A DNA stretch of 42,216 bases from the NCBI GenBank assembly GCA_014804995.1, contig JAAUYS010000167.1, positions 1-42,216 on the forward strand, written 5' to 3'. This document shows, one piece after another, positions 1 to 42,216 of this stretch (positions within the stretch are counted from its first letter, which is position 1; the number at the start of each line of letters is the position of its first letter). Below the pieces are notes generated by a model, which made no database searches, was not told the origin of the DNA, and saw only the letters and a program-made list of their open reading frames with translations. Origin of the DNA: Clostridia bacterium (lineage in GTDB: Bacteria > Bacillota > Clostridia > Christensenellales > Borkfalkiaceae). A program made the translations under genes and the position numbers.

Positions 1-2
1 AG

Positions 3-185
3 AGGTCCTCTCTTGAGGATGCGAATAGTATTATTGAAAACGATAGGTACCCTGTGCGCTACCGTAAGCAGGCAATTAACCTGCTGTCCGCGCGGATAGA
101 GGCGTGGATACAGAAGGAGATAGATGATAGCTTTGTATCCTGGTTCCTTGGCTGGGACAGGGATTTTAGAGATAGCTTCATGTAA
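3..185 (+). CDS. C-terminal part of an unidentified protein, truncated at the window edge
   Basis: Open frame from base 3: RSSLEDANSIIENDRYPVRYRKQAINLLSARIEAWIQKEIDDSFVSWFLGWDRDFRDSFM*; not in the ORF track because the start is outside the window. Confidence 0.55.
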   Translation, partial: RSSLEDANSIIENDRYPVRYRKQAINLLSARIEAWIQKEIDDSFVSWFLGWDRDFRDSFM

Positions 186-206
186 AAACATAAAGGAGAT
201 TATTCT

Positions 207-653
207 ATGTTTAACTTAAATAACATGCGCTGCACCGATTTTGCAGTGAGAGGCATGGAACATCCAGCCAATTATTGCGGCGGCCAGATGGTGTATTTCT
301 GGTCTGCTGATATGAGCAGGCCGGAATTAGTGGCGCGGACGTGGTACTATCACGCCTTGCGCTTTGAGCCAGCGCAGGTTGCCTGCCGTCTGGAGATTAA
401 GCTGCCTGACGATGGCAGATATGGGGTTGGCCGTGGCAAGCACATTCTTGCGTCCAATACGGAGGCGTATGACAACGCCTTTATTATGGCGTTGTATGAC
501 GCCTTGCGGCCAGTGAATCAGCCAAGACGTTATATGACCATAGCCCAGGGGATTGCGGAGCTTATAAAGGCAATCTCGCGCGAAACTGGGCACAAATATT
601 TATTAACTTCCAACAGCCTTATCCCCGTTGTGATAAGGCGCAAGGACCAATAG
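207..653 (+). CDS. hypothetical early protein
   Basis: ORF with strong SD 'aaaggagattattctATG'. Confidence 0.75.
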   Translation: MFNLNNMRCTDFAVRGMEHPANYCGGQMVYFWSADMSRPELVARTWYYHALRFEPAQVACRLEIKLPDDGRYGVGRGKHILASNTEAYDNAFIMALYDALRPVNQPRRYMTIAQGIAELIKAISRETGHKYLLTSNSLIPVVIRRKDQ

Positions 654-669
654 CTGATAACCTATAACC

Positions 670-698
670 GGCGCTAGTATGTGTATCATGCTGGCGCC
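670..698 (+). other. intergenic RNA hairpin
   Basis: ggcgctagtatg(670-681)/catgctggcgcc(687-698), 10 Watson-Crick + 2 U.G pairs, 5-nt loop. Confidence 0.6.
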
Positions 699-715
699 AC
701 AATAAGAGGTAACAT

Positions 716-958
716 ATGAGACTGGAATTTCGTAGTAGGTTGACTGGCAAGGAGTTTCGGACAAATGTCAAGCCTCTTTCAATGGAGAGAGACGGCAACT
801 GGCGTACATGGAAGATGCCTGAAAGATTCTGCAAGCGCTTCTGGGGTAGTCGCTACCAGGGAATGAGATACCAGATAGACATTTTATGGGGAGTATTCTG
901 GTGCCCTTGTATAGTGGGCAAGGACTGGATAAGTTTCTATACAGGAGACTGTTGGTAG
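716..958 (+). CDS. hypothetical small Trp/Arg-rich protein
   Basis: 80-aa ORF, co-directional, SD 'aagaggtaacatATG'. Confidence 0.6.
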   Translation: MRLEFRSRLTGKEFRTNVKPLSMERDGNWRTWKMPERFCKRFWGSRYQGMRYQIDILWGVFWCPCIVGKDWISFYTGDCW

Positions 959-973
959 TTTTATAGTGTCTGA

Positions 974-1010
974 CAGACCATGTATAACTCATAATATTAT
1001 GCGTGGTCTG
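974..1010 (+). other. intergenic RNA hairpin
   Basis: cagaccatgtataa(974-987)/ttatgcgtggtctg(997-1010), 14 bp including 2 U.G, 9-nt loop. Confidence 0.6.
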
Positions 1011-1070
1011 GACTGGCATTGTAAATTCCAGGCAATTTTGCCATAATAATCTAACATTAGGAGATATATT

Positions 1071-1655
1071 ATGAACGTGCAGGATTTGGAAATCAGGATT
1101 GAGTATGACCAGTATGCTGAAAATCCCAGGGAAATGTTTGACAATTTGGGCAAGATAGTTTATCACAGTAACAGATATATGTTAGGTGATGAAGACATAT
1201 CTCCAGATGAATTTGAGATGCCGAAGGATGCTATTTATCTGCCGGTGTATGCGAACATTCACGGGAGCATAAGCCTGTCCGTGAGTGAGTATGCTGGCTC
1301 ATGGGATAGTGGCATGTCGGGGTACATTTATACCACGCCTGACAAGATAAGGGAGTTCTACGGCGACAACATCCCTTCAGAGTCTGACATAAAGGAGGCT
1401 CTCAAGGGTGAGATAGCGGAGTTCTCGGCATACTTGTCTGGGGAGGTTTATGGCTACAGGATTCTGGACAGGAGGACAGGTGAGGAGCTGGACTCTTGTT
1501 GGGGATTCTACGGCTACGACTACTGCAGGGAGTATGCCGAGGGAGAGGCGCAGGGAATAGTTGACAGCGCCAATCAGAGGGAGTATGATAGCGCCGTTCG
1601 CGAGTACTTGTATGCGAGAGAGAAGTACCAGGCTATTGCCAAAGAGATAGCCTAG
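1071..1655 (+). CDS. ArdA-like / 'DSCWGF(Y)G' phage-plasmid protein, possible antirestriction or DNA mimic
   Basis: Acidic 194-aa protein with IYTTPDKIREFYGDN...LSGEVYGYRI...ELDSCWGFYG pattern familiar from mobile-element proteins; strong SD. Confidence 0.5.
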   Translation: MNVQDLEIRIEYDQYAENPREMFDNLGKIVYHSNRYMLGDEDISPDEFEMPKDAIYLPVYANIHGSISLSVSEYAGSWDSGMSGYIYTTPDKIREFYGDNIPSESDIKEALKGEIAEFSAYLSGEVYGYRILDRRTGEELDSCWGFYGYDYCREYAEGEAQGIVDSANQREYDSAVREYLYAREKYQAIAKEIA

Positions 1656-1668
1656 TGTTATAAGAGGC

Positions 1669-1704
1669 ATAGGCAGGTCGGTATTGCCAGTGCTGGCCTG
1701 CTAT
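1669..1704 (+). other. intergenic RNA hairpin
   Basis: ataggcaggtcggtatt/agtgctggcctgctat, 16 pairs including 4 G.U and one bulged G. Confidence 0.5.
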
Positions 1705-1746: not shown

Positions 1747-2703
1747 ATGGCGACTTATGTGAATTATGACGCGGGGAAGTTGTTTGCTGGGAAGGCGAGT
1801 GGCAATCTGATTGCTGGATATGACCAAGCTACAGAAGACGTGCCGCCATTGCGCAGGGACTACATCCCGCAGGAGTGGGTGGCGCGTGACCTGATTCCGC
1901 AGCTTATTAATTATAATGAGCCGATATGGATTTCAGGCCCTACGGGTTGTGGCAAGACTCTTGGTGTGAAGTGGGTGGCGGCCAGGCTCCGCTATCCCGT
2001 TTTTGAAATCACGGCCACGCCTGACATGTCCGCGTCTGACCTGTTCGGACATATCGGTCTGGAGAACGGCGAGACCGTCTGGGTTGACGGCGCGCTGGCT
2101 TGTGCGATGAAGCAAGGCGGCATATTCCTGCTGAATGAGATAGACTATTTGCAGCCCTCTCTTGCGGCTGGACTTAATACTGTCCTTGATGGCAGCCCAT
2201 TGCGGATACCAGATACAGGGGAGGTGATAGTTCCGGAGCCTGGGTTTAAGTTTATCGCCACGGCCAATACAAATGGCAATGGTGATATTTCTGGTCTGTA
2301 TGTGGGCACAAATGCGCAGAACATGGCGTTTGTGAATCGTTTTATTAATATCAGTGCAAGTTATGTCAATGAGAAACAGGAGATGGCATTTCTCATAAAG
2401 GCATATCCGAATCTTGACAAGACCATAATCTCGTATATGGTGAAGCTGGCTGGGCTTACACGAAAGGCATTGGCTGGAGAGAAAATCTCAAGCGACTATT
2501 CAGACATAACGCAGGAGCTGACCACTGCCATAAGCACGAGGTCGCTTATGCGCTGGGCGAAACAGATTGAGATATATAAGCCGCTTGCGAAAGCTGGCAT
2601 CAACGTGGTGGAGTACGCGCTTGAGAGGTCGGTGACGACAGACAGCGCGAGCATGTCGGTGTTGAAGGCGCTTTTGCAGAGGGTGGCGGGGAGTACGAAA
2701 TGA
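1747..2703 (+). CDS. MoxR/CobS-like AAA+ ATPase
   Basis: Walker A GPTGCGKT, Walker B-like IFLLNEID, sensor ATANTNGNGD; strong SD aaaaggagattattATG. Confidence 0.85.
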   Translation: MATYVNYDAGKLFAGKASGNLIAGYDQATEDVPPLRRDYIPQEWVARDLIPQLINYNEPIWISGPTGCGKTLGVKWVAARLRYPVFEITATPDMSASDLFGHIGLENGETVWVDGALACAMKQGGIFLLNEIDYLQPSLAAGLNTVLDGSPLRIPDTGEVIVPEPGFKFIATANTNGNGDISGLYVGTNAQNMAFVNRFINISASYVNEKQEMAFLIKAYPNLDKTIISYMVKLAGLTRKALAGEKISSDYSDITQELTTAISTRSLMRWAKQIEIYKPLAKAGINVVEYALERSVTTDSASMSVLKALLQRVAGSTK

Positions 2704-2834
2704 GATTTCATTCAAGAAGATTTACAAAGTTTTGCAAGACCACCCAGAAGGTGCATAAATGGGTGGAGATTGACGCCGACTACTGGTGGGATATTCATGC
2801 CGCATGGTGGCGTCTGGTATTTGTAGGTAAGTGA
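2700..2834 (+). CDS. Trp-rich basic miniprotein (44 aa), missed by the ORF track
   Basis: ATGA overlap with the upstream stop, SD 'ggggagtacgaaATG'; MRFHSRRFTKFCKTTQKVHKWVEIDADYWWDIHAAWWRLVFVGK*. Confidence 0.5.
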   Translation: MRFHSRRFTKFCKTTQKVHKWVEIDADYWWDIHAAWWRLVFVGK

Positions 2835-2861
2835 ACAATCTAACAGAATGGAGAAAAGAAA

Positions 2862-3881
2862 ATGGCGGACCAGAATGTTGTATCTAACGGTATTTTTGTT
2901 ATTCCTAATATTACTATTTGGACAGGCAAGGCCACGCTCAAGCGCGAGGAGTTGCCTGTTGACCCTGACAAGCTGCCCCCGGATGACGTGACCAAGAGTT
3001 TCGGTAGCAAGGCGATATATGACAAGGACAAGCTGCGTCCGTTCCTTGCTATAAAGTCCAGGATGCGGACGCTTATGATGAGCAAGTGCATGCCGTTCAT
3101 AGGTGGCTACATGTGTGGCGAGGACCAGCTTCAGGATGTGGAGGCTGGGCTTGATGCCTTGCGCAATGAGTTTTATAATGAGGTAACAAAACTGGAGGGA
3201 GAATATCAGGCCGTTTGTGATGAGTGGCTTGATGAGCATAAGGACTGGGCGCATATAATGCAGCCTGCCATGCCCAGTCCGCATGAGATAGGGAGCAGGT
3301 TTGTCTTTGGCTGGGACACTGTGAGAATCTCGCCAGTGGGAGATGCGACAGAGAAAAAACTGGACTCTCTCGTTGACGAGTCGGTGGCGAATATGGCGGA
3401 GGAGATTGCCGCCACGCGGGAGAGTGTCTATTCAAAGACCAGTAGCAAGAATACGGTGAAACCTCTTGAGCGTCTTATAGAAAGGTGCAAGGCGCTGACG
3501 TTCATGGGCAGTCCGCACCTGGCGAAACTTGCGGACGTGCTAACGGCGCTAACGACCCTGCCGAGCAGGGAGACTATCAACGCGGCGCTTGCGCCATTGG
3601 CTACGTCGGAGGGGTTGCAGTCATTTGTTGATAGTTTATCTGGCAATGAGTCAGGTCTTGAGGTGTGGAACAAGGCGGTGAGTCTCGCGCCACAGGATAG
3701 TGAGCCTGACAGTATTATATCTGAAGCGGAGCAGTTACTGTCAGGCACTGATGAGGAAGGAGTGCTAGAAGCCGAGCCTGTACCCGAGCCGGTCAAACCC
3801 GAGTCAGTCATTCCAATGGCGCCAGATGATGACAAGAAAGATGGTGATGGGGTATTTCTTGACTCATTCGGTTTATTCTAA
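2862..3881 (+). CDS. DUF3150-like protein
   Basis: NITIWTGKATLKREEL...SKAIYDKDKLRPFLAIKSRM...CMPFIGGY resembles DUF3150; position between AAA+ and VWA genes typical of that family. Confidence 0.65.
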   Translation: MADQNVVSNGIFVIPNITIWTGKATLKREELPVDPDKLPPDDVTKSFGSKAIYDKDKLRPFLAIKSRMRTLMMSKCMPFIGGYMCGEDQLQDVEAGLDALRNEFYNEVTKLEGEYQAVCDEWLDEHKDWAHIMQPAMPSPHEIGSRFVFGWDTVRISPVGDATEKKLDSLVDESVANMAEEIAATRESVYSKTSSKNTVKPLERLIERCKALTFMGSPHLAKLADVLTALTTLPSRETINAALAPLATSEGLQSFVDSLSGNESGLEVWNKAVSLAPQDSEPDSIISEAEQLLSGTDEEGVLEAEPVPEPVKPESVIPMAPDDDKKDGDGVFLDSFGLF

Positions 3882-3890
3882 TAACTAATA

Positions 3891-3912
3891 GGGCATGGGG
3901 AAACCCATGCCC
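3891..3912 (+). other. GNRA-tetraloop hairpin copy 1
   Basis: gggcatggg-gaaa-cccatgccc: perfect 9-bp stem with GAAA loop. Confidence 0.7.
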
Positions 3913-3931
3913 ATAAATAAAGGAGAGTGTT

Positions 3932-5584
3932 ATGAAGGTTAGTGAGATTACAATGCTTACAAAGGCGTTGAGTGAAAAGAAAAATGTCCGTGCCATGTTG
4001 TCGTTTGATGGCAGGGCATATGCCGGTTTCAAGAGCGGAAAATATACAATCCATATCCCTGTACCGGATGACAATTCCCATAGTCAACTGGTTCATGGAT
4101 ATATTGACCATGAGACAGGGCATGTGAAGTGGACAGACTTTGATAAATTACAGGAATTATATAGAGATGAGCATACGCTTGCCAATATCTATGAGGATGA
4201 GATGGTGGAGCGCAAGATGGGAGAGATTTTCCCCGGGTGCAGGGAGAATCTGGAAGCTCTTGCGAAAAGCGTATTTGACTGCAAGATGCCGGTATACATA
4301 AAAGATACTGTAAAAAAATACAAAAGAAACCCGCGTATGGATATTATAGAAATTGTTGATTATGCTCTTTTATATATCAGACGGGCGCGTCTGGTGAAAG
4401 AGTTTCAGAGCCATGCCAATGCCATGAGAAAGGTTTTGTATGCGATATTCAAAGGCGAACGCAAGGAGCTTGACGAGCTTCTGGATGCGTCATGTGATTG
4501 CACAGAGGATAGTGTGCGTTGTGCCAGGGAGCTTTACGCTTTGATTTGTATGCGTTTTAATGAGGATGTTGCCCAGAATAATTCCCAGCAGAATACTGGA
4601 GAGGACGGCAATCAGGATAGTGATAACCAGGGAGATTCTGGGGAGAGTGGCGGCGCATCGGGAGAGACTGATAGTACTGGTGACAGTGAGCTGGATGAGG
4701 CATTGAACGAGGCGCAAGGTGAGGAACAACCAGGGTATGGTTTGGGAATTTTCTCAAGTGATATTGGCAACGCGTTGAGCAATAGGTTTTCAGAAGAATT
4801 GAAAACGTATGATACTGAGAAAAAAATGGAGATTGAGGAGTTCAATATAGGGAAGAATGATGAGTATAATGATTATTTAAAATGTGATTGGACTAGACAG
4901 AGTTCTGTAAAAGTCATAACGAATATGGCCGCAAGAATGGGGAGGACTCTTATGCCTCTCTTGCAGCATCATTCATATAGGCCAGCGCGTCCTGATTATG
5001 CTGGGACAAGTATTGCCAAAAGAAGATTATATAAAGTCAGGACTGGAAGCGCGGATGTCTTTATGACAAAGGGTGTGCAGCGGGATGTGAATGTTGAGCT
5101 GAAGATACTTTGTGATACATCCGGCTCAATGGATGGAGAACGGATTAAGATAGTGGCGCGGAGTCTGCTTGCGATATATCATGCGCTCAATGGTAGGCGT
5201 GGTATAGATATGCATGTGGCATATTTTGATGATGCGTATAAACCCGCTGATGACAGGGATTTAAGGAACTATGTGACAGCGGATGCTGAAGGTGGGACAT
5301 GCCTTGGCATGGCTATTGGAAGGATATTACAGGAGTACAAGACGGACAAGCGCAGGGTTCTCTTTGTGTTCACAGATGGGGAAACATGTGACAAGGGTAC
5401 TGCGCTGGACATGATAAAGAGTGCGGCGCGTAAGGGAGTGGAGTTATATGGCATAGGCATATGCACGGACATTCTTGATGATTATGATGGGCTTGTGCAT
5501 GAGAATGTGTATGAGCTTGACAAGGTGCCTGGCGTGCTTCAGAAGATGTTGCGCGAGGCGTTATTAAATAAAAAGGCGGCATAA
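3932..5584 (+). CDS. CobT-like von Willebrand A (VWA) domain protein
   Basis: MIDAS-type LKILCDTSGSMDGERIKIVARSLLAIYHAL, acidic low-complexity linker; N-terminal HGYIDHETGHVKW metalloprotease-like segment. Confidence 0.82.
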   Translation: MKVSEITMLTKALSEKKNVRAMLSFDGRAYAGFKSGKYTIHIPVPDDNSHSQLVHGYIDHETGHVKWTDFDKLQELYRDEHTLANIYEDEMVERKMGEIFPGCRENLEALAKSVFDCKMPVYIKDTVKKYKRNPRMDIIEIVDYALLYIRRARLVKEFQSHANAMRKVLYAIFKGERKELDELLDASCDCTEDSVRCARELYALICMRFNEDVAQNNSQQNTGEDGNQDSDNQGDSGESGGASGETDSTGDSELDEALNEAQGEEQPGYGLGIFSSDIGNALSNRFSEELKTYDTEKKMEIEEFNIGKNDEYNDYLKCDWTRQSSVKVITNMAARMGRTLMPLLQHHSYRPARPDYAGTSIAKRRLYKVRTGSADVFMTKGVQRDVNVELKILCDTSGSMDGERIKIVARSLLAIYHALNGRRGIDMHVAYFDDAYKPADDRDLRNYVTADAEGGTCLGMAIGRILQEYKTDKRRVLFVFTDGETCDKGTALDMIKSAARKGVELYGIGICTDILDDYDGLVHENVYELDKVPGVLQKMLREALLNKKAA

Positions 5585-6751: not shown

Positions 6752-7006
6752 ATGGGGACTGCCGCGTTTACGCATAAATTGTTACAGGAGAATTTACGCC
6801 AGAAAGAAATGGACTATGAGAGGCATAAGGCTGTGAAGCTGTTTGCCGACAAGTTGGCGGAGGCGAGGGAGAGGGATTCAAAAGAGTTGGCCGAAGCGTT
6901 GCGGGTGTGCGCGCCAGAGGACATGATGAAGCTCCTGCTCAATAAGTTGCGGGATGTGGGTTATAAAGAGGCGGTGGAGATGTATGAGTGTCGTATTATC
7001 TCCTAG
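6752..7006 (+). CDS. hypothetical protein
   Basis: ORF; start moved from 6731 to 6752 to fit SD aggaggtgcgatATG. Confidence 0.6.
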   Translation: MGTAAFTHKLLQENLRQKEMDYERHKAVKLFADKLAEARERDSKELAEALRVCAPEDMMKLLLNKLRDVGYKEAVEMYECRIIS

Positions 7007-7676
7007 TAACTTACAGACATTCAGGCAGTGTCCGAGGCAGTTTTATGGGAAGACGGTGACGCGTCAAATTGTCTGGAAGCCGACAAAACAAAAGACCAGA
7101 GGTACCCAGATGCACACGCTTATGGAGCGCGCCATGCGGATGGGCTGGTCTGATGATATAAGCGGCCAGTTTGACAACCAGGTTGACATAATGATGGCGA
7201 AGGACACTGTGGACTTTGTTGTGGGGATGCGCAAGACAGGATGGGACTTGCGCATTGAGCATGAGATGTGCGTTGATGGGAAGTGCAATCCCTGTGGCTG
7301 GTGGGATGAGGCGGCGGCCTTGCGAGCCAAGGCGGATGTCGTGCTTGTGCCGGAGGATGCGTATGACTGTCTGTTTATAGGGGACATAAAGACTGGGAAG
7401 AAATATGATAATGACCATTTCCAGTTACGGGTTGAGGCTTTGCTTGGGCATATAATCTATGGCGTGAAAGAGGTGGCGTATTACTACTGGTATATAGACA
7501 GTGGTGATATAGATTATGCCAGCATAGATTTTTCAAGGGGACTGGCGGATGTTCAGGACGTTCTTGATACTATCAGGGACTGTCGGCAGAGCATAAAGAA
7601 TAATTATTTTCCGCCTACCAATAATGTTTTTTGTAAATGGTGCGAATGGTACAAGAAAAAGGAGTGTGGGTTATGA
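6984..7676 (+). CDS. PD-(D/E)XK nuclease (RecB/Cas4-like)
   Basis: LSPSNLQTFRQCPRQFYGK...CLFIGDIKTGK...FQLRVEALL; C-terminal FCKWCEWYKKKECGL Cys motif; start moved to 6984 (SD ggtggaga). Confidence 0.75.
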   Translation: MSVVLSPSNLQTFRQCPRQFYGKTVTRQIVWKPTKQKTRGTQMHTLMERAMRMGWSDDISGQFDNQVDIMMAKDTVDFVVGMRKTGWDLRIEHEMCVDGKCNPCGWWDEAAALRAKADVVLVPEDAYDCLFIGDIKTGKKYDNDHFQLRVEALLGHIIYGVKEVAYYYWYIDSGDIDYASIDFSRGLADVQDVLDTIRDCRQSIKNNYFPPTNNVFCKWCEWYKKKECGL

Positions 7677-7888
7677 ATATTACAGGAAGAGTACAAGAAG
7701 TAGAATTGGAAAGAGAAAATAGATGTCCTTTTTGTGAATGTCTTTATGCTACTATTCTTCCTACAGAATATGGTTGGGTAGTACAGTGCGATAGTTGTCA
7801 AGCTGCTGGGCCACTTTCTTCTAATGCAAAAGAGGCTTGGGAGAGATGGAATAAACGGAAAAGGAGGAAGATGGATTATGACGCATGA
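7673..7888 (+). CDS. Lar-like zinc-ribbon (restriction alleviation-type) protein
   Basis: CPFCE...VQCDSCQAAGPLSSNAKEAWERWNKRKRR. Confidence 0.6.
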   Translation: MNITGRVQEVELERENRCPFCECLYATILPTEYGWVVQCDSCQAAGPLSSNAKEAWERWNKRKRRKMDYDA

Positions 7889-8234: not shown

Positions 8235-8550
8235 GATAAAGACGAAAGTTAAAGCGATACTTGAAAGTCTGGGAGATAAATGCTGGTACTTCATGCCTGT
8301 GCAAAGAGGGCTTGGATGCAAGAGAGGTGTGCCGGACTTTATAGTATGCGCTGGCGGGTTGTTTGTCGGTGTGGAGACCAAGGCGGGTAATAACAAGAGG
8401 ACGACAATCCAGAAATATGTTGGGGACAGGATAGAACTTGCCGGAGGCGCAGTGATAGTGGTGAATGAGGATACTCTGGACGCCTTTGAACAGGCCATGC
8501 AGGTGTGGGTGAGCGATGAGAGTGATGGAGAATCTTGTTCTATATCCTGA
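8215..8550 (+). CDS. VRR-NUC domain nuclease
   Basis: GLGCKRGVPDFIVCAGGLFVGVETKAGNNKRTTIQK; adjacent to SNF2 helicase as in many phages. Confidence 0.8.
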   Translation: MTTPEGKIKTKVKAILESLGDKCWYFMPVQRGLGCKRGVPDFIVCAGGLFVGVETKAGNNKRTTIQKYVGDRIELAGGAVIVVNEDTLDAFEQAMQVWVSDESDGESCSIS

Positions 8551-10123
8551 ATATCAGCAGATGGTGGCGAAGCTGGATAGACCGGAGAATGTCATGCAGC
8601 TTGCCGCCATACCTGATACAAAGGTCAGTGGCAAGTTTGTCCAGATACCCTGGAGCATAGGAGCCTGCCGTCTGTTATATAACATGGGAGTGCGAGCCGC
8701 GCTTGAGGCCGCTCCCATATGTTTTGACAGACTGCCATTGGTTGAGGGGAAATACAGGCCAATGAAACATCAGCTTGAGATAGCGGCCTTTATGACGCTA
8801 TACCCAAGAAGCTATGATTTGGCTTCCCCTCGCCTTGGCAAGACGTCCGCCACGCTCCTGGGCATAGACTACTTGCAGCGAATACACGCCATAACAGGTG
8901 GCTGTCTTATTATTACAACGCTCACTACCATACATGGTGTGTGGAAAGCAAGCATAGAGTCCATGTTGCCTGGAGCGAGAGTGATAGTGGCGCATGGGAA
9001 AGACAGGGCGAAGGTTCTGGAGAAACCGGCGGACTTTTATATAACCAATTATGACTCGGCAAGGATAAGCCGGGACGCTTTTATGAAAGCCTGTAATGAG
9101 GGGCGCATAGGAGCGGTCGTAGTGGATGAGCTTACCCATGTTGGCAACTCAACAAGCAAGAGGCATAGGGCTATATATGATATATGTAACAAGACGCCAG
9201 TGAAATATGTGTATGGTCTGACTGGCTCCCCTGCCGATAATCCTGAAATGGTTTACGGGATGTGCAAGGTGATAAACCCTGGTCAGTTGCCATGTACGAC
9301 AAAGCAGGGGTGGATGAACCTTACAACATACCAGTGGGGTTCGGAGCCATACCAGAGAAGCCTCGCGGCTGGAGCGAAGGATGTTATCTATAAGGCCATG
9401 CAGCCAGCCATAAGATTCAACAAGGATGACATACTGGACCTGCCGCCAGTCACCACGCAGATAAGGGAGTGTGACTTGTCGCAGGCGCAGAAGGTTATGC
9501 GCAAGGACTTGCGTGATGAGGCCATAGCGCTTCTTGATTCTGGAGAGGTGATAACAGCGGCCAATGGCGGAGTGTTGTTGAACAAACTCATGCAGGTGGC
9601 GATAGGAGCGGTCAAGACTCATAATGATGGGGTTATCTATCTTGACCACGGAGAGCGGACACAGACCATACTGGACATTATAAAGGAGACAGACAGGAAG
9701 GTTGTTATCTTTTGCGGGTTTATCAAGGGCATACAGATGACGGTGGATGAGATAAGAGCGGCGGGTTATACTTGCGAGAAAGTGGACGGTTCAATAACAG
9801 GAACACAGCGCGCCGACATTCTGGCGAGGTTCCAGAATGGCAAGGACCCGCATGTGCTGGTATGTCATCCTACCACTACGGCAATGGGGGTTGAGTTGTC
9901 TGCCGCTGACACCATGATATTCAATGGCGTTCCTCTTACTGGCGGGTTTGTCTATGCCCAGTCAGTAGAAAGATTGAGCAGTAACAAGCAGACGTCAAAG
10001 AATATAAACATAGTCCATGTCATATCCACGCCAGAGGAACGCAAGGCGCTTGCCGCTATCCAGAAGGGATATGACATGGGCAAGAAGATAGCCGAGATGT
10101 TCAAGGAATTTTTTACGGAATAA
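8516..10123 (+). CDS. SNF2-like / SF2 DEXD helicase
   Basis: MKHQLEIAAF, SPRLGKTSATLLGI (Walker A-like), VVVDELTHVGN, C-terminal VLVCHPTTTAMGVELSAAD and QSVERLSS. Confidence 0.8.
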   Translation: MRVMENLVLYPEYQQMVAKLDRPENVMQLAAIPDTKVSGKFVQIPWSIGACRLLYNMGVRAALEAAPICFDRLPLVEGKYRPMKHQLEIAAFMTLYPRSYDLASPRLGKTSATLLGIDYLQRIHAITGGCLIITTLTTIHGVWKASIESMLPGARVIVAHGKDRAKVLEKPADFYITNYDSARISRDAFMKACNEGRIGAVVVDELTHVGNSTSKRHRAIYDICNKTPVKYVYGLTGSPADNPEMVYGMCKVINPGQLPCTTKQGWMNLTTYQWGSEPYQRSLAAGAKDVIYKAMQPAIRFNKDDILDLPPVTTQIRECDLSQAQKVMRKDLRDEAIALLDSGEVITAANGGVLLNKLMQVAIGAVKTHNDGVIYLDHGERTQTILDIIKETDRKVVIFCGFIKGIQMTVDEIRAAGYTCEKVDGSITGTQRADILARFQNGKDPHVLVCHPTTTAMGVELSAADTMIFNGVPLTGGFVYAQSVERLSSNKQTSKNINIVHVISTPEERKALAAIQKGYDMGKKIAEMFKEFFTE

Positions 10124-12261: not shown

Positions 12262-15200
12262 ATGGTTCACTTCCTCCAAAGAATACTACCCCTACCAATT
12301 TCGCCTCCCGCTTGCGCGTATATTGTGGGCATACAGAAATCACCCGGTGCCAAGAATAGTCGGGTTATTCACAAGCCATATATAAATCCCACTGATGCCG
12401 TATCCCATGCCCAGACATTGAACAGACAGGGTATGGAGACCTACTTCACTCCGGTTGTGTTCAGTGATATAAATAAAGGCCGGCTTGCCGAGAACGCCTT
12501 GTCAGTCAAAAGCCTATGGTTTGACATAGATGTCGGCAAGAAATTCAATTCCTATCCCACGCAGCCAGACGCGATAAACGCTCTCCAGAATTTCATAGGA
12601 GCGACAGGACTAAAGCCCACTATCGTTGTCAGCACGGGCACTGGCTATGCCGCCTACTGGACTTTCACCGCGAGTCTTGACATACCCGTATGGAAGACAA
12701 TGGCCCAGATACTTGTTGGGCTTGCGAGGCAAAACAATTTTATCATAGACAAATGTACGGAAGACGCGGCGCGGGTTATGCGTATGCCAGGCACGATACA
12801 CCACAAGTCTGGCGGCAACCTGGCCTCCGTCATTATAGATACTGGCAAGGACTGGGAGCCTAATGAATGGCTTGAGCAGGCGAAGAAAACTTATAGTGGA
12901 ATAACGGCTCCGCTTCTTGCAAGGACAAGCACGCCCACTACTCATAGCGTGGCTCCGAAAGTTTCTCATGTTACACCTCCGCTATCCTCTCCTGCAATGG
13001 CGCAGGTGCTTGCGCAAACTGGAGTCAGACCGCAGAAGCCGAAAGTAAAAGCCGAGCCTATCGTTAGAAATTGCGGATGTATGCTGACCGCCGGATTGTG
13101 CAGTGAGCCGCAGTGGTATGCCGCCATGTCGGTATTGAAAAGATGTGTTGATGGACGCGAATGGGCGCACAAACTCTCCGCTATGGACAAGGGGAGATAT
13201 GTTTATGATGACACCGAAAGAAAATTCACCCATGCGCCTGATGATATGCCTGCAAGATGCGACAGATTCTATTCGCTCAATCCAGACATATGTCTGAAGT
13301 GTCCGCACAGGGGTAAAATCACAAGTCCGATACAGCTTCACAATCTCCCAGCAGAGGGGAGTGTGGAGGTCGCGGCTACTCCCATACCAGAGCAATCTCC
13401 TGGTCTTTCCCTTGCGCCAGTACAGCCTGTAACTGCCAGGCCAGCGCATTTGGAGATACCGAAAGATTTTGATTTCCCAATGATGGCCTTGCGCGATGCC
13501 GAGTTCGGAGTGGACAAGCGAGGCATATTATATAGATTCTCAAAGAAAGATGACTATGGCAAATGGATACAGGTAGAGCAGCTTATCTGTTCGGTGCAGT
13601 TGTATTACACTCATACAGTGCATTCCGTTGATGATGACGGCGCACCGAAGCGTGTCCACTGGTTTGTGGCGATACACCCAGACGGACGCAAGGAGAAACT
13701 GCCACTGAATATCCATGCGGATATGAACTCTCAAGCGATAATGAGGTGGTTTTATCAGGGCAACATGTTCCCCGCTTCATCAGGGATAAAGCCTGGTTTA
13801 CTGGTGGCGTTTATGCAAGCATATCTCAAGAGTGTTATCTCAAGCAATGTGGAACTGAAGACAGTGGATAAATTCGGATGGTGCAAAAACTTTCATGACC
13901 CCAAGCTGGATTGTGAGGTGGAGGGTTTTGTCGTGGGAAAAGGGATAGTTACAGAAACAGGTATCTATCCCGTGCATCATTCTGATGTATGTGAAAGGAT
14001 TGCCGAAGATGAGATGGGAGTCAGTGGCAATCTGGAGAACTGGAAACATGTTCCCAGAATGTATAAGACTCTTGACCAGAAAATAGCGCAGCTTGCCATA
14101 TGCCTCGCCTTTGCGGCACCATTCATGCGCTACTGTTCGGGCGCGGCCAAGAGCGCCACAATGTCTTTATGGAGTTCCCAGTCTGGACTTGGCAAGTCGC
14201 AGCTATTGCGGGCTTGTGCTTCTATCTGGGGACACCCAGACCGCCAGTTTGTGCAGCGCAACTCATCACAGGTCTTGCGTATGCGCAAGCTATCAACCCT
14301 TCATAATCTTCCATGCTTCATGGACGAGCTGACAGATGTGAAAGATGAGGATTTATATTCACTGGCATATACCCTCGTTGACGGCAGGGAGAAACAGAAA
14401 CTGCATTCATCAGGCGCGGACATGGTGAAGACAGGTAGCTGGAACACTGTTACATTCACCACAGGCAACAAGAGTTTCAAGGAAGCCGCATCAAAATATT
14501 GTGGGGATTCGGACGCGAGCCTCTTGCGTGTCATAGAGTTTGAGTGCAACTTCAAAACATATGAGGATATGCCGAAAGTAAAGGAATATATCAATGCCTG
14601 CATAGCCATGTGTTCAGACAATTATGGCGTGGCTGGTCCGGAGTTCATGTATCAGCTTTTCCAGAAACGGGACAGGCTTGAGACCTTGCGATACAGGATT
14701 GAGACATGGTGCGTCAATCATAACTATACCAATGAGGAAAGGTTCTTCAGTAATCCATGCGCCATAGCGCTCATAGTTGGCCGCTGGGCGTGCGAGTTCG
14801 GGATTCTGGACTTTGATATGGATGCGCTGGAAGCGTGGGTCCTGGGCGATTTCTCGGACTATAACAGGGCTATCCACAAGGAAATGAAACCATTTCACAA
14901 GGAGGTCATAGGCCAGTATCTTATGGAGCGACAGCTCAATACCCTTATCGTGGCGTCTGCCTACAGGGAGGCGCATTGCCATGAGACATCATCAACCGAT
15001 TTTTCTATGGATAGATATATTATATCCTATCCCAAAAAGGAAGTATATGTCAGGCAGGAACGCGCGGAGAAAGCTATTTATATAAGTGTTACCGATATAA
15101 AAAACTGGTGCAAGAGCAAGTCATATTCCTATACCATTCTGAAAAAAACGCTGGAGCTACAGCGGATAAATGTGGAGACGGTTGTCTATAATCTTGGGCA

Positions 15201-26481: not shown

Positions 26482-28139
26482 TGTCCCCTGTATGCCGTGA
26501 ATGATGAGTTTCCAAGACTGATGCTATATACATTGCCACTTCCCGTCAACGTCAATTTATACCAGGGATGCCTCCCACAGCGCCTTATCTTATGCGCTTT
26601 TGTATCAGCAAGGAATCTGTCAAAGACCTTGTGGAAGTTGGAGTCGTACAGCTCCACAGTTGCCTCACCTGACATTTTTATCTCGGTAGGCCACCATAAT
26701 GGAGAGTCCGCCAGACTCATGGCGGCCTGCTCATTGTTGCCATACGCCTTGTTGTCAGACACTATATGGCGGCTCTCCCAGATATACGACATGTATTTGT
26801 CGCCACCATCCCATACCCAGACCTTGTTGTCTTCCAGATATAATAACTTTCCAGTGTTAGACACAAGCAGGTCATCGGGTCTTATTGAGAGTGTGCATAA
26901 CTCTCCATCAGACATATCGCCATAGGGCTTGCCGTTCAGGTCCAGCATGAATGTCGCCATGTCAGTGGCGAATACGAGATACCCCTCCCAGTAGGCCATG
27001 CGGATAGTGTCAGGCATGAGCCTTGCCCACTCATCCCTGCCGAACCATTTGCTTGTAACTATATGCCACTGACCATTGGCCTGTAAAAGTATTATCCCCA
27101 CAGGAGAGGCATAGAACATCCCATGCTCGGTCATAATCGCCCCATGCGGACGGACGCATCCTATGTCTGGAAGTGGGAACTCAAGCTGCGAGACAGGAGT
27201 GCATTTTGTGTCATCGCAATTTGATACGTCTATGATATACGGCACACTGTCAGTTGTAACGAATATGCGCTGGTCCTGCACCATCATGCGCACTATATTA
27301 TGGTCAAGGGTAAGGTCATATTTGGCGGGCCAGTTATGAGGCTGGAACTGCTCGGAGAAAAATATCCTGTTTCTGATAAACGCCGCAAGACGCACCTGGT
27401 CCCCGATGCTTATGAGGCCAGTCATCCCCCTTGGCGGCATACGGTCATATTGTGTCTCAAGCGCGGAACCAAGCGCGAGAGTCCTTATCTCATCAGTATA
27501 GCTGCTTTGCCCAGCAGGGATGGTGTCAACATAAAGAAATTCAGTAACAGGAGTCTGGACCTTCCCATCCATCTGCCGAAACCCTGAAGCACTCCGATAG
27601 ATATTTATCTCAACAGCATTATCCGTAGCGACAAGTCCTGATATTGTTACGCTTGTTCCGTCATTGACTCTTATGATATTGCTCGCCGGACTTGGCGCGG
27701 ACTCGGCTCCATGCTCATCAACACAGGTATAGACGTAAGAGCGGGCATCAGCGTCCCTGCTACATTCCTCGGACGCGTTAACAAATGGAGCATTATAAGG
27801 AGCCGCTATCCCATAAGCCCTTGCAGTCTCATTACAGCACTCGTCAACGGCCACATACTGAAGCCCAGTGCCGCAATGGTCTGTCATAAAATAGCCACCC
27901 CAGTCTGGCCCAATGGTCGCCACGTCCATAATCTGCGTCCATGACGGCATACAACACCCGTAAAGCCAAAACATCTTCGCGTTCGCCACAGGCTCCCTGC
28001 CGAACTGACAGGGCACTCGCCATGCCTCCAGACGGCCATTGCGGAGTTTCACATCATGGGCCACAGTCGCCTGATACTCGGCAAGCATATGGTCCGCAAG
28101 TCTTGGTATTATGCCGCCGAAATGGGATATTGCGAACAT
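26478..28139 (-). CDS. podovirus-type virion structural protein (tail/nozzle region)
   Basis: Conserved-looking start ISHFGGIIPRLADHMLAEYQATVAHDVKLRNGRLEAWR; beta-rich body; start set at MFAISHF. Confidence 0.5.
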   Translation of the reverse strand: MFAISHFGGIIPRLADHMLAEYQATVAHDVKLRNGRLEAWRVPCQFGREPVANAKMFWLYGCCMPSWTQIMDVATIGPDWGGYFMTDHCGTGLQYVAVDECCNETARAYGIAAPYNAPFVNASEECSRDADARSYVYTCVDEHGAESAPSPASNIIRVNDGTSVTISGLVATDNAVEINIYRSASGFRQMDGKVQTPVTEFLYVDTIPAGQSSYTDEIRTLALGSALETQYDRMPPRGMTGLISIGDQVRLAAFIRNRIFFSEQFQPHNWPAKYDLTLDHNIVRMMVQDQRIFVTTDSVPYIIDVSNCDDTKCTPVSQLEFPLPDIGCVRPHGAIMTEHGMFYASPVGIILLQANGQWHIVTSKWFGRDEWARLMPDTIRMAYWEGYLVFATDMATFMLDLNGKPYGDMSDGELCTLSIRPDDLLVSNTGKLLYLEDNKVWVWDGGDKYMSYIWESRHIVSDNKAYGNNEQAAMSLADSPLWWPTEIKMSGEATVELYDSNFHKVFDRFLADTKAHKIRRCGRHPWYKLTLTGSGNVYSISLGNSSFTAYRGQ

Positions 28140-28141
28140 GA

Positions 28142-29458
28142 CTAATTCGCTGACAGGTTGGCTGCCATAGTTACGGAATTGAGCATGAGGCATACACTGT
28201 TCGCCACGTCAAAGGAGCCGCCCTTCCATTCAAACTTGAGCGTATGCTCCCCAGCTCCAAGCACCGCATAGGACCAGAATACGAATCCTCCATGCCCACC
28301 GAATATCCGCACCTCGCATGTTAGGGAATCATCTATAATCACATCAGCGTTTGGAGAATCTCTTGAGCCTAGAAACGTGTCCTTGTCATCCACCGTGGCT
28401 ACGACAGGAACGAATATTGTCCCCGCTATCTGGCTATCACTCTCAAGATTGAATGTGCCAGTATAGTTGTGGGCAACAGCGTTAGCCATCCAGTAAAAGA
28501 AAAAGTTGCTCCCAGAACTTGCGCCACCCGCGCTTGCCTGTTTCTTTTCTATGCTTGTGGCAGAGCCAAGCTCGTTGAATGTGATGTCATAGCCGCCACA
28601 GCTAACGGTCTGCTCACCGCCTAGGTCTATATTCTGCTTGATGTCATATATATTATTATACTTGTCAAGGGTGACGTCATAACCGCCAAGGAGCCATATG
28701 CCCTCTCTTTTATTGAGAGGTTCAGCAAGTTTTATTGTATATATATTTGTCTTGGGGTCAGCGTCAACATCAATCCCATCCCCAGGGATTATGCCTGTAA
28801 CACCCTTGTTCGCGCTGCCTGAACCCGTATCTATAAGATGCCCATACCTGTCAAAGGTCATCCCATTGATAGTTGTCTGTGTGCCCTCTTTATGGTTTAT
28901 GACATAGGGGTCATCATAAGTGCCAGAGCCTGTAAGTTTTATGGCGTCATTCCCTGAACGGATATACATGCCGCCAGAACTGGAGCCACCAGAGCCGGAT
29001 ATGATAAACGGATTGGTGGATGTGCCATTGCCAGTTACGGTTATGCCGCTGCCTCCCTCAATATAGACAGTGACAAGGGGACGCCCAGACAGGTCACAGC
29101 GATAGAGATTTCCTGGTGTCGCGGATGGGTTGCAGAGATTGCCGCTCCCCCCACCGCCAGAACCGGAGCCAGTGCAGTCACCAGGTAACGGAGCGCAGGG
29201 GCTGCCAGTATAAATAGGCACAGTCTCGCTTTGCCGCACATTCACAAGACAGCCGTCAGCTATGACAAGCCTGTCATATACGCCATCTGGAGGCGGACTG
29301 CCCTTTTGGAGGTGAACGCCAAGCTCATCAGCATATAGGAGACCACCCCACGGCAGACATATCTCCCATGTTTCCTGCACGGGTACTTGTGTTTCACTGG
29401 CAGATACAAGTTCTTCTGCGCATTTCTGTACGGTACGGGGAGTGCATTGTTCTTCCAT
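28142..29458 (-). CDS. tail fibre/appendage-like protein
   Basis: Gly/Ser-rich repeats GSGITVTGNGTSTNPFIISGSGG, ...GDGIDVDADPKTNIYTIKLAEPL; start MEEQC with SD AGGAG. Confidence 0.55.
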   Translation of the reverse strand: MEEQCTPRTVQKCAEELVSASETQVPVQETWEICLPWGGLLYADELGVHLQKGSPPPDGVYDRLVIADGCLVNVRQSETVPIYTGSPCAPLPGDCTGSGSGGGGSGNLCNPSATPGNLYRCDLSGRPLVTVYIEGGSGITVTGNGTSTNPFIISGSGGSSSGGMYIRSGNDAIKLTGSGTYDDPYVINHKEGTQTTINGMTFDRYGHLIDTGSGSANKGVTGIIPGDGIDVDADPKTNIYTIKLAEPLNKREGIWLLGGYDVTLDKYNNIYDIKQNIDLGGEQTVSCGGYDITFNELGSATSIEKKQASAGGASSGSNFFFYWMANAVAHNYTGTFNLESDSQIAGTIFVPVVATVDDKDTFLGSRDSPNADVIIDDSLTCEVRIFGGHGGFVFWSYAVLGAGEHTLKFEWKGGSFDVANSVCLMLNSVTMAANLSAN

Positions 29459-30346: not shown

Positions 30347-30360
30347 CTCAAAACTCCATA

Positions 30361-30422
30361 AAATAAAAAACCCATGATAGGGTCGCAACTTGAGTATATC
30401 CAAACTCAAGACCTATCATGGG
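30361..30422 (-). terminator. intrinsic terminator / leader attenuator before antirepressor
   Basis: - strand CCCATGATAGG ... CCTATCATGGG with inner CTTGAGT/ACTCAAG stem, followed by TTTTTTATTTT. Confidence 0.75.
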
Positions 30423-34546: not shown

Positions 34547-35509
34547 CTATGCTGCTACGTTGATTTCATCAAATGTCCAGTAACCAAGGGCGAGAGCGTC
34601 AGGATAGATAACATCCGCGCCATACGCCACAAAATACTGATAGCGCACTCCAAGGCTGTTCGGGTCATTGGCCGCGAGACGCGCCTTGACTATATTGGAC
34701 GCATACGCTGTCGCTTCCCTGTGTCCGGCTATGATAAAGAATGAGAGCTTGCCTGTCTCATCCATACGCACAGGCACATGAATGGACTCAATGACATTGA
34801 AGCCCGCAAGCTGCTTGTCCCACATGCCAGACACAATAGTGCCACAAGTGCAGCTCCAGTCAGAATTGGAGTAGTTGCTCATGGCGATATATGTCCGCAG
34901 GATGGGAGGCACTATGAGGAACATCTCGTTGTCGCGCCATCTCTTTGTCTCAAGCATTGTGCGCTGGAGATTGAACAGGTGCAGCGGCAGATTGGACGGG
35001 CAGATATGCACGGGATTGCCAGGCTCGCCAAGATTGATGTCATGGTAGCGTCCGGCTCCGTTCATGCTGGTAAGAGGTGAAACACCCGCCATCATGCGGG
35101 CCAGCACATAGGAGCGCTGGCTGTCCACATAGGACTGGTACATGGACTCAAGCAGTTTCTGCTCATAGGACGCCCATCTATCACAGGCCATCTGAATGTC
35201 AATCTCATCAAACTTGATGTCCTGATAGTCCAGGTTGCAGATATTCAGACAACGGGCCTCTGTCGTCACAGTGTTCGGCACTAGCTGCTGGTTTTTCTGA
35301 TAGGGTCGCATTGGTCCCACTTCAGGCGCGTACATTATCTGTATGCTCTGGGCGCATCTCGTTACTGGCTCAAGCAGTTCGGACGCTGTGATACGGGGAA
35401 GCCAATCTTCCTCATATACGCGGGAAAGTATTTTATCGCTATACTCATGCCGCGCAAGTGGGGTAGCCTCAATACCGGAATAACCACTGGCACTCTGATA
35501 AACAGGCAT
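34547..35509 (-). CDS. major capsid protein (putative)
   Basis: Size, position after scaffold, capsid-like composition (SDKILSRVYEEDWLPRITASEL...). Confidence 0.65.
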   Translation of the reverse strand: MPVYQSASGYSGIEATPLARHEYSDKILSRVYEEDWLPRITASELLEPVTRCAQSIQIMYAPEVGPMRPYQKNQQLVPNTVTTEARCLNICNLDYQDIKFDEIDIQMACDRWASYEQKLLESMYQSYVDSQRSYVLARMMAGVSPLTSMNGAGRYHDINLGEPGNPVHICPSNLPLHLFNLQRTMLETKRWRDNEMFLIVPPILRTYIAMSNYSNSDWSCTCGTIVSGMWDKQLAGFNVIESIHVPVRMDETGKLSFFIIAGHREATAYASNIVKARLAANDPNSLGVRYQYFVAYGADVIYPDALALGYWTFDEINVAA

Positions 35510-38463: not shown

Positions 38464-40431
38464 CTATGCCTCTCCACCTGATACGTCCGCCATTACTCCA
38501 GCGCCTGTCGGGGATGGTGGAGCGGGATTGGCGTTGGGGTCCATCATCATTCCCTGCCCTGAAGTTTCCCCTTTCATCTGTTCGGTTATGCTGCCTGGCA
38601 CTCCCATTGAGGTAAGCAGCTTGTCCAGCGCCCACTGGATAGCCGGACTGATATTGACCATCTGCCCAAGACCAGCGGCGGCTCCACCAAGTATCTGTAG
38701 TATCTCCATCGCGGATTGCTTCTCCATTTCCCTCTGAAGCAATCCCTCCGCACCCTTGGTAACTATCTGACTGTCCCCTTTCACTTCCACGTCAGGGGAG
38801 AAAATCATATTGGTATTATATAATAAATGCCCAAGTGGGTCAAACACGCCTTCAGATATATGACCAGCACTGGCTGTAAGGGCTTTTGTCGCATTGCCCT
38901 GTAACATGCTCATGCCTCTGAATGTGCGCATGGCTCCAGACCCCACCGCCTCTCCATGAAGCGCGGCGGGAATATTCGTAACCTTGTCCGCAAGCTGCAT
39001 GAACATTTCAAGTAGCTGCGCATATGCTGGCATGTTCGCTGGGATATTCTGGAAGCGTATCGCTGGCTCATTCCTGTTTGACGCGTTGGAGTCAACCAGA
39101 TACATTGTGCCTGGGATAAGCTGCCCAAGCTCATTCTCCCCAAGATATTTCGCAAGCCTTGAGTAATCAGCCTCCGATATGGGAGCCGAAGCGAATGAGG
39201 CATTACGCATAAGGTATTGCAGACTGGCGATATAGGCCCGCTCAACGTCACGTATGCGCTGCGCTATCCCATCCCCTGCTATCCTGTCCCCGCCAGTCCT
39301 GTAGAAACTGGCAGTATAAATCGGTCTTGTATGAAGCCGTGGGTCAGTATAGACCTTTACCTGAATGACACGGCCAGATACCATAGCGACAGTGGCGTTA
39401 TAAAACTCGGTACTATCCAGACCTTTGAAATTATATCTCTCAAGCTCCCTGCCGGAGAAAAGGCCATAATGAGTAAGCACTTCTATTGGCCTCACATTGG
39501 ATGCCCATAACGCGAGACTCCGCATTTCCTCATCGGGTGAACGGGATAACCACTCAAGAGGGAAGTTCGCGTCCCTGTCGGCAGACTCAAGAACATCCAG
39601 CACATTCTCATGGATGTAGCCTTGCAGTTTCATGGCTTGCAGTAATTCCCGCCTTGTCCACAATGTACGGGTAAAGACGCAAGTGCCTCTCTGGGTATCG
39701 GGACTGTCAGGGGAATATGCGAAATCAAACGGACTCACCGCCCTGAATGTTGGAAATATCTCATCCTGTATTCTGGGCTTGGTCTTTCCCCATACAAGCC
39801 TGGGAGCGCGGGTTATGAATGGTCCTGTGAAAACGGCGTATGGATATATCACAAAGTAATGCAGGAAATCAGATAACGCCCTTGCAAACCCACCCTCGGC
39901 GCACTGGTCGGCAATGAGCATGAGCATGGCGTCAGCGGCCTTTTTCGCCGCCTCACTCTCCTTGTCATACGCCATGAGTTTCAACTGCCTAACTGTTTCA
40001 ACAAGCAGACCAGGATTGCCCCCGAACATGTTGGCCTCAAGTCCCTGGCGGATTGTCATCACAATCTCATCCTTGGCATCCTGCGCTATATCCGGTCTTG
40101 GAGTTGGCTGTATCACCCACGGAAGGTCTGCCGCCGCTCCACCAGTAAGAGCCTCGTTGAGAAAGGCATTGGCTATATCGGCTTTGAGACTCGTCAGATT
40201 CACCACCACATCAACACCGAGAGCCTCGGCACGTTGGAGTGCTGTGCAGTCAAGTAAAGAGTTTTGCTGGTTATAGCAGTTCTCAAGAACGGTGCGGAGG
40301 GGCTTGCCGTTCACAAGCTCCGTTGACTGATACGCCACTGCCCCATTGAACCTGCGGATAATCTCTGCGGCCAATGGGTCCAGCTTCTTTGGTATATCGG
40401 AAATTTGTTCAAGCCATTTTATTGAGGCCAT
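38464..40431 (-). CDS. portal protein
   Basis: 655 aa; FRAVSPFDFAYSPDSPDTQRGTCVFTRTLWTRRELLQAM; position between terminase and capsid. Confidence 0.75.
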   Translation of the reverse strand: MASIKWLEQISDIPKKLDPLAAEIIRRFNGAVAYQSTELVNGKPLRTVLENCYNQQNSLLDCTALQRAEALGVDVVVNLTSLKADIANAFLNEALTGGAAADLPWVIQPTPRPDIAQDAKDEIVMTIRQGLEANMFGGNPGLLVETVRQLKLMAYDKESEAAKKAADAMLMLIADQCAEGGFARALSDFLHYFVIYPYAVFTGPFITRAPRLVWGKTKPRIQDEIFPTFRAVSPFDFAYSPDSPDTQRGTCVFTRTLWTRRELLQAMKLQGYIHENVLDVLESADRDANFPLEWLSRSPDEEMRSLALWASNVRPIEVLTHYGLFSGRELERYNFKGLDSTEFYNATVAMVSGRVIQVKVYTDPRLHTRPIYTASFYRTGGDRIAGDGIAQRIRDVERAYIASLQYLMRNASFASAPISEADYSRLAKYLGENELGQLIPGTMYLVDSNASNRNEPAIRFQNIPANMPAYAQLLEMFMQLADKVTNIPAALHGEAVGSGAMRTFRGMSMLQGNATKALTASAGHISEGVFDPLGHLLYNTNMIFSPDVEVKGDSQIVTKGAEGLLQREMEKQSAMEILQILGGAAAGLGQMVNISPAIQWALDKLLTSMGVPGSITEQMKGETSGQGMMMDPNANPAPPSPTGAGVMADVSGGEA

Positions 40432-40434
40432 AAA

Positions 40435-40464
40435 AAATCCCTGTTGATATTTCAGCAGGGATTT
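40435..40464 (-). terminator. hairpin terminator between Bro-N gene and portal
   Basis: - strand AAATCCCTGCTGAA-ATA-TCAACAGGGATTTTTT; 13-bp stem. Confidence 0.75.
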
Positions 40465-40489
40465 TATACTGTTAGATTTTATTTGTCAA
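40461..40489 (-). promoter_or_regulatory. near-consensus promoter overlapping the terminator 5' arm
   Basis: - strand TTGACA-N17-TAAAAT. Confidence 0.6.
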
Positions 40490-40495
40490 CTTAAG

Positions 40496-41239
40496 TTAAG
40501 ACTTCCGATACTCTGCAAAGATATTAGTGGTCATGGTCTGCTGTTTGAACAATTCTATTATTTTTACGCTATAAACATTGACGGTGCCATAAGTGGAGTC
40601 TTGTGCCTTTCTTATCTCCTCATTCATTACCCTTGAGAGCGCAGATAAATGCTTTCCGATTTTCCTATACACATTGGGAATACTCACATCATAATAATTC
40701 GGCAACCAGTCTATAGCCTTGACCTGTTTCCAGTAAGTCGCATTTCCTACTTCTTCCCGCAGATACTCATTATCCTCCGTCAATATTTTATTTTCCTCAA
40801 GAGCTTTCATCTTGGCTTCGTATTCATCAGCCCATGCCCTTGCTGCCTCCACCGGATTAGTGAAGTCTAGCAATTCAACTTTCTGCAATGAGTAGCTTCC
40901 TGTCTTGCGGATTTCCGGCAAAACCTTCTCACATACCCATTGCCGAAACTGAATTGCAGTAGGTAAATTACTGCGGAATATTAGAGCATACACATCCGAT
41001 TCAGGTATAATATTGATACCACGGGGGCTGTCGGTGAAAGGTTGCGAATCACCTCCTTTCAATAATTCCACATAGTTACAATGTGCGCTTACGGCGTCTT
41101 TAGGAATTGAATACCCCAAAGCAGCGGCTACATCATTCGCTACAAACCACGGCTCACCATCCCGAATAAGCACGCGAACCTTTCCAAATTCAGGATTTTC
41201 AAAAAGTTTAATTTCCTGCTTGACATTTTCCGGTAACAT
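40496..41239 (-). CDS. Bro-N domain antirepressor
   Basis: FGKVRVLIRDGEPWFVANDVAAALGYSIPKDAVSAHC...IPESDVYALIFRSNLPTAIQFRQWVCEKVLPEIRKTGSY; start MLPENV with SD AAGGA. Confidence 0.85.
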   Translation of the reverse strand: MLPENVKQEIKLFENPEFGKVRVLIRDGEPWFVANDVAAALGYSIPKDAVSAHCNYVELLKGGDSQPFTDSPRGINIIPESDVYALIFRSNLPTAIQFRQWVCEKVLPEIRKTGSYSLQKVELLDFTNPVEAARAWADEYEAKMKALEENKILTEDNEYLREEVGNATYWKQVKAIDWLPNYYDVSIPNVYRKIGKHLSALSRVMNEEIRKAQDSTYGTVNVYSVKIIELFKQQTMTTNIFAEYRKS

Positions 41240-41277
41240 AATTATATTCCTTTGCATTGGTTGGTTGAAGCACATGC

Positions 41278-41307
41278 AGAAATGCCGCCAATGCTATCAG
41301 CATTTCT
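41278..41307 (-). promoter_or_regulatory. dyad/hairpin region upstream of Bro-N gene
   Basis: agaaatgc/gcatttct 8-bp hairpin and internal dyad aatgct-atc-agcatt. Confidence 0.5.
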
Positions 41308-41319
41308 TGTGGTAAAGAA

Positions 41320-41349
41320 TTGATAGCACAAAACCCCGCTGGCCGTCAA
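41320..41349 (-). promoter_or_regulatory. candidate promoter of Bro-N gene
   Basis: - strand TTGACG-N18-TATCAA with extended -10 TGC; -35 lies in terminator loop. Confidence 0.45.
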
Positions 41350-41365
41350 CCTAGAAGCGGGGTTT
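41331..41365 (-). terminator. hairpin terminator after terminase gene
   Basis: aaaccccgct/agcggggttt 10-bp stem; short T-run on - strand. Confidence 0.65.
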
Positions 41366-41371
41366 ATCTTT

Positions 41372-42216
41372 TTACACAATCTTTATCAGCTTCTGTCTGT
41401 GATTTCTCACAATGTCCGCCACCCTGTCCTGATATGGGTCGTTTATAGCCCACCCTTTTGAAATCAAAAGGCAAGCATACTGGTTCGCATCTTGCAAATG
41501 GCTTGCCTCATTCTTTTCAGGCTGCGGAGTATAAGCCGCGTCTATGCTCCCCGCCGCCCGCAATCTTCTATATCTGTACTCGCTCTCAAATCCCCTTATG
41601 AGCAACTCACAAGTAGGCGATATGAGCAAGCCGCCAGTGTAAAGATTGAGCATATGCTCCACACACTGTATTCGTACCTTGGGAGTATTGTCTATCTCCG
41701 TAATAGCCGTAATGCCCACCGCCTCAAATCTCTCCCTCGGAGTTATGGCTTGCCATGAGTCCCTTGTATTGCTTGGGTCTATCGCCGCAATAACCGGACA
41801 GGTACTATATTTCTCTCGCAACAGCGGCACAAGACCGCCATAGAGAAACTGCTCAAAGCCCTCACCATCCATGTAAAGCTCATCAAGCACGCACCACATG
41901 CCATTCTGATTCTGCATCACCACTGCCGCTGGGTGAATACCAGACTGGTCCACGCCTATAATAATATTCTTGAATGGGATAGGCACAAGAGGCTGCTGCG
42001 CCACATGCCGTTTTCTGTTGAAGTTAGGATATACAGGCTTGCCATCTATTATTGGCACATCCATAAGACAGTAAAGATTCTGAACCAAATCCTCCCTGCC
42101 CGTTCTCAAATGCGTCTCAATCTGGTCCCTGTAGTATCTCTTTCCCCTTTCCTCTGGAGGAAAATCCGGCGGGTCATCCGGCCTTTCAGACCCAAGATTG
42201 TAAAGATTCTCGGCGC
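41372..42216 (-). CDS. terminase large subunit, nuclease domain (truncated at window edge)
   Basis: IIIGVDQSGIHPAAVVMQNQ...CVLDELYMDGEGF...VIAAIDPSNTRDSWQ; frame stays open upstream of 42109 to the edge. Confidence 0.75.
   Translation of the reverse strand, partial: AENLYNLGSERPDDPPDFPPEERGKRYYRDQIETHLRTGREDLVQNLYCLMDVPIIDGKPVYPNFNRKRHVAQQPLVPIPFKNIIIGVDQSGIHPAAVVMQNQNGMWCVLDELYMDGEGFEQFLYGGLVPLLREKYSTCPVIAAIDPSNTRDSWQAITPRERFEAVGITAITEIDNTPKVRIQCVEHMLNLYTGGLLISPTCELLIRGFESEYRYRRLRAAGSIDAAYTPQPEKNEASHLQDANQYACLLISKGWAINDPYQDRVADIVRNHRQKLIKIV

Follow-up and report, generated by a model that had tools for sequence, protein, structure and literature searches.

Loss of restriction sites is an already known escape strategy of phages, of which we describe a strong new example here. 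In a survey of phages, only orthodox Type II sites were commonly eliminated (PMC6286503), and the loss of GATC from Staphylococcus phage K (Kayvirus) has been ascribed to escape from Sau3A restriction (PMC6532042). In the 50 kb of phage K that were counted, GATC (0/143, observed/expected) and GGCC (0/29) are absent, TCGA is reduced but not eliminated (24/143), and CTNAG is normal. GATC is nearly gone from Escherichia phage T7 (6/155), in which CCSGG and GRGCYC are depleted while TCGA and CTNAG are kept. The marine Puniceispirillum phage HMO-2011 has lost GATC (0/188), CGWCG (0/62), and GRGCYC (0/27) over 50 kb, with TCGA merely lowered (47/188) and CTNAG normal (159/188). Rhizobium phage RHph_TM3_14A, in turn, has emptied GANTC (0/190) but retains 122 GATC and 205 TCGA sites in 50 kb. 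GANTC is the CcrM methylation site of Alphaproteobacteria.

The stretch of DNA analyzed here (42,216 bp; the window) shares the loss of GATC with phage K, an unrelated large myovirus, with the distantly related HMO-2011, and nearly so with T7. It differs from all three in having been emptied of TCGA and CTNAG as well, and from RHph_TM3_14A in lacking both GATC and TCGA. Each phage lineage has thus emptied its own set of palindromes.

Gene content of the phage contig

The window corresponds to contig C167 in a metagenome bin of 210 contigs (2.4 Mb; completeness, 83.6%; contamination, 6.5%). Its minus strand encodes head, portal, internal virion, and terminase proteins and its plus strand replication and recombination functions, a gene content that identifies it as a podovirus-like phage. 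The predicted late genes on the minus strand encode an internal virion/tail protein (26478..28193; phrog_511, E 1.3e-80), the major head protein (34547..35509; phrog_267, E 1.8e-12), the portal or head-tail connector (38464..40431; phrog_332, E 1.8e-28; 73% identical to its counterpart on contig C26 of the same bin, G000), and the nuclease part of the terminase large subunit (41372..42216; phrog_10250, E 0.005). The frame of the terminase gene stays open to the right contig end, where the gene is cut; hence the phage genome is incomplete, and the missing part possibly includes a polymerase or a methylase. Two antirepressor genes, one of the AntA type and one of the Bro-N type, lie amid the late genes at 29570-30409 and 40496-41275, and yet no integrase or repressor was recognized in the contig. 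Terminal repeats, tRNAs, and Rfam RNAs were likewise not found in the window.

The nearest named phages to the window's portal protein are RHph_TM3_14A (27% identity) and phages of the HMO-2011 type, HMO-2011 itself being 24% identical. RHph_TM3_14A also shares the order of several predicted plus-strand genes, which encode a PD-(D/E)XK RecB/Cas4-like exonuclease (6954..7676; PF12705, E 2.7e-14), an endonuclease that is VRR-NUC-like by synteny with that phage (8215..8550; phrog_93, E 1.2e-14), an SNF2-type helicase (8516..10123; profile match), and a 1,013-amino-acid DUF927 replication protein (12262..15303; PF06048, E 8.4e-17) with 23% identity to its RHph_TM3_14A counterpart over 90% of its length. 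Upstream on the same strand, profile matches point to a MoxR/CobS-like AAA ATPase, a DUF3150 protein, and a VWA protein in tandem (1747..5584), a chelatase/MoxR-like set.

Elimination of three palindromes

Exact counting over the window gave 0 GATC and 0 TCGA, as the original prediction had claimed from reading the sequence by eye. That prediction had put the expectation at roughly 165 sites each, and base composition over the whole window gives 164; a maximal-order Markov model gives 110 GATC and 46 TCGA, figures that are themselves pulled down by the avoidance. The fairest of the nulls that we used was a codon shuffle, in which synonymous codons were shuffled among 43 open reading frames (ORFs; 39.4 kb) with the proteins and the global codon usage kept. 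For the coding part alone, it yields 99.2 GATC and 98.2 TCGA, against 0 and 0 observed. As even this null expects about 100 of each, the absence of both words is far beyond chance.

When gapped and degenerate palindromes were scanned, a third eliminated site emerged, CTNAG (DdeI type), which occurs twice where the codon null predicts 139. The original prediction, although right about GATC and TCGA, had overlooked it. Exact counting places the residual sites at 4815..4819 (CTGAG) and 22201..22205 (CTAAG), and the other two forms, CTCAG and CTTAG, are the sole 5-mers at zero on the plus strand apart from those containing GATC or TCGA.

Could a mutational or compositional bias of host or phage have produced these gaps? 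Some skews are indeed present in the window, such as low TTAA and CTAG. However, the codon null preserves composition as well as proteins and still predicts the missing sites, words one letter removed are frequent (276 GATA, 192 GATT, 131 TCGG, and 122 TCGC), and TCGA and CTNAG occur at normal frequencies in a sister phage described below. We consider such a bias to have next to no chance of being the cause, and base-composition bias is rejected by the codon null.

Avoidance through synonymous codon choice

The sites are avoided through synonymous codon choice that shifts only where a site would otherwise form. Before a codon starting with C, all 86 aspartates are encoded by GAC, compared with 320 of 679 elsewhere; after a codon ending in G, isoleucine is never ATC (0/181), compared with 129 of 553 elsewhere. 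Serine is likewise never TCG before a codon starting with A (0/116; elsewhere 61/341), and leucine before a codon starting with AG uses CTN once in 23 cases (elsewhere 732/986). When the portal gene was aligned to that of the sister phage, every CTNAG site of the sister was found to be gone from the window, in part by synonymous differences and in part by amino acid differences.

Palindrome-specific depletion and its probable cause

Depletion extends well beyond the three motifs. Relative to the codon null, CGWCG (3/50), GRGCYC (2/32), and CCSGG (6/46) are strongly depleted, and the 6-bp palindromes AAGCTT, TGGCCA, and GAATTC are at zero, with 17, 15, and 11 expected, respectively. Pooled 6-bp palindromes that do not contain the three motifs are about halved (258 observed versus 546 expected), whereas nonpalindromic 6-mers are undepleted (38,967 observed, 37,827 expected; ratio, 1.03). 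The depletion is therefore specific to palindromes. It does not strike all of them equally, as the plain 4-mers CATG (233), GCGC (237), AGCT (148), GGCC (134), and GTAC (74) are common in the window, in line with the original prediction. Known Type II enzymes recognize GATC, TCGA, and CTNAG, as well as CGWCG, GRGCYC, CCSGG, AAGCTT, and GAATTC. Under the threshold of Rusinov et al. 2018 (observed/expected of <0.1 with an expectation of >15; PMC6286503), applied here with the codon null in place of the paper's formula, GATC (0/99), TCGA (0/98), CTNAG (2/139), CGWCG (3/50), and GRGCYC (2/32) all rank as eliminated, and the restriction of the depletion to palindromes agrees with that study's profile of orthodox Type II systems with mostly palindromic sites. 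It is unusual for three sites of four-base information to be emptied at once while many other palindromes are thinned, and this combination suggests that the lineage was exposed to several restriction-modification systems.

Our inference, both as to restriction as the selective force and as to the enzymes involved, is that the phage lineage was very probably under selection by orthodox Type II restriction enzymes. This agrees closely with the confinement of the depletion to palindromes, the use of synonymous codons, and motif sets that differ between lineages. The lineage would have repeatedly met bacteria with enzymes cutting GATC (MboI/DpnII/Sau3AI type), TCGA (TaqI type), and CTNAG (DdeI type), with lesser pressure from enzymes acting at other palindromes. 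Unmodified genomes still bearing a site would have been cut on entry, and synonymous site-free mutants would have been selected until practically no site was left. The original prediction had proposed two restriction activities. Its idea that restriction sites are selected against has good support, but two is too few: CTNAG is eliminated as well, making at least three sites, and still others are depleted.

For GATC, a different pressure is conceivable, namely, escape from methyl-directed mismatch repair and MutH nicking in a Dam-positive host. There is a precedent in phiX174, which is without GATC and whose mutation rate became eightfold lower when GATC was restored (PMC5014478). This would not account for TCGA or CTNAG, or for the depleted CGWCG, GRGCYC, CCSGG, and 6-bp palindromes, and no MutH-family protein was detected in the bin or among 30 relatives, with the caveat that the phage may have a host other than the bin. 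Mismatch repair instead of restriction is hence improbable, and we reject it as the only cause since it leaves TCGA, CTNAG, and the further palindromes unexplained; avoidance of Dam-directed repair could nevertheless contribute to the loss of GATC, though not to that of TCGA or CTNAG.

Anti-restriction genes and nucleases

On this explanation, the absence of sites would be a protection in itself and require no protein. The window was also said to encode Lar-like and ArdA-like proteins and to lack a recognizable Dam-type methylase. A Lar-like restriction alleviation protein of 83 amino acids is indeed predicted on the plus strand at 7637..7888 (PF14354, E 1.4e-7; phrog_599, E 3.1e-7), scoring above the gathering cutoff of PF14354 (32.1 versus 28.6 bits) but below the cutoff of NCBIfam TIGR03655 (27.4 versus 39.6). 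The ArdA-like protein did not hold up: no scanned ORF matched an ArdA profile, with the Pfam scan covering a minority of the large structural genes. The acidic ORF at 1071-1655 has phrog_6186, a family of unknown function, as its sole match, and no solved structure resembles it convincingly. No methylase was recognized among the scanned ORFs of this incomplete genome, consistent with the earlier statement.

The gene content bears on another reading, in which unprotected endonucleases of the phage itself, working without a methylase and with these specificities, hit host or competitor DNA and spare the phage because it has no sites. The phage does encode the PD-(D/E)XK protein and the phrog_93 endonuclease, several of its ORFs could not be assigned to a family, and a methylase was not recognized. 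However, both nucleases have syntenic counterparts (a RecB-family exonuclease and a VRR-NUC) in RHph_TM3_14A, a phage with 122 GATC and 205 TCGA sites in 50 kb; no scanned ORF matched a Type II endonuclease family, and three or more specificities would be needed. We regard this as highly improbable compared with selection by restriction enzymes of the bacteria encountered.

A sister phage with a different set of missing sites

When about 117 of the 210 contigs of the bin were searched for the remainder of the phage genome, by site signature and with tblastn, only the sister phage turned up, on contigs C25, C26, and C184. Apart from the portal, its matched proteins are mostly 30 to 50% identical to those of the window. 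In 392 genomes belonging to the same class as the bin, no portal relatives were found outside the bin itself, and two further scans of genome contigs gave none.

Like the window, the sister phage has no GATC (0/82), but unlike the window, it keeps TCGA (64/82) and CTNAG (41/82) at ordinary frequency. The motif set is therefore lineage specific. Such differing sets are expected if the two lineages met different enzymes. The window offers a clean quantitative case of multisite escape from restriction in a family of uncultured phages. Where related phages have shed different sets of sites, the missing palindromes may be read as a record of the restriction enzymes that each lineage met, a record that might be of use in predicting hosts for uncultured phages.

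The bin and the host

The bin is mixed, with a core that we read as Clostridia-like from its Gram-positive-type genes, one of which encodes a WhiA-like protein. The 54 core contigs, chosen by low GATC and CATG (594 kb; e.g., L008, L009, L027, L050, and L107 of G000), contain 5 GATC and 42 CATG; about 2,260 GATC would be expected from composition and 794 from the Markov model, an extreme elimination for a cellular chromosome. That the core is likewise nearly without GATC is what an assembly or library artifact might produce, for instance, if restriction fragments had been lost during DNA preparation. However, 51 contigs of the same bin (491 kb) have normal GATC, and loss of fragments cannot yield a gap-free 42-kb contig in which the ORFs are intact and potential sites have been replaced synonymously, so that an artifact is exceedingly unlikely.

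The phage may have a host other than this bin, because CATG (5.5/kb) and GGCC, both of which the core avoids, are abundant in the window and because the nearest named relatives of the phage infect Proteobacteria. A search of 41 genomes, comprising the bin and 40 of its relatives, detected DpnII-family endonucleases in 3 relatives, where they adjoin D12-class methylases, but not in the bin. No TaqI-family endonuclease was found in 31 genomes (the bin and 30 relatives). No 16S rRNA gene was found in the bin. Three further contigs (L024, L112, and L137, which are G000 contigs C20, C151, and C189; 18.5 kb) have 1 GATC, 0 GGCC, and 5 CGWCG, while TCGA and GANTC are frequent in them.
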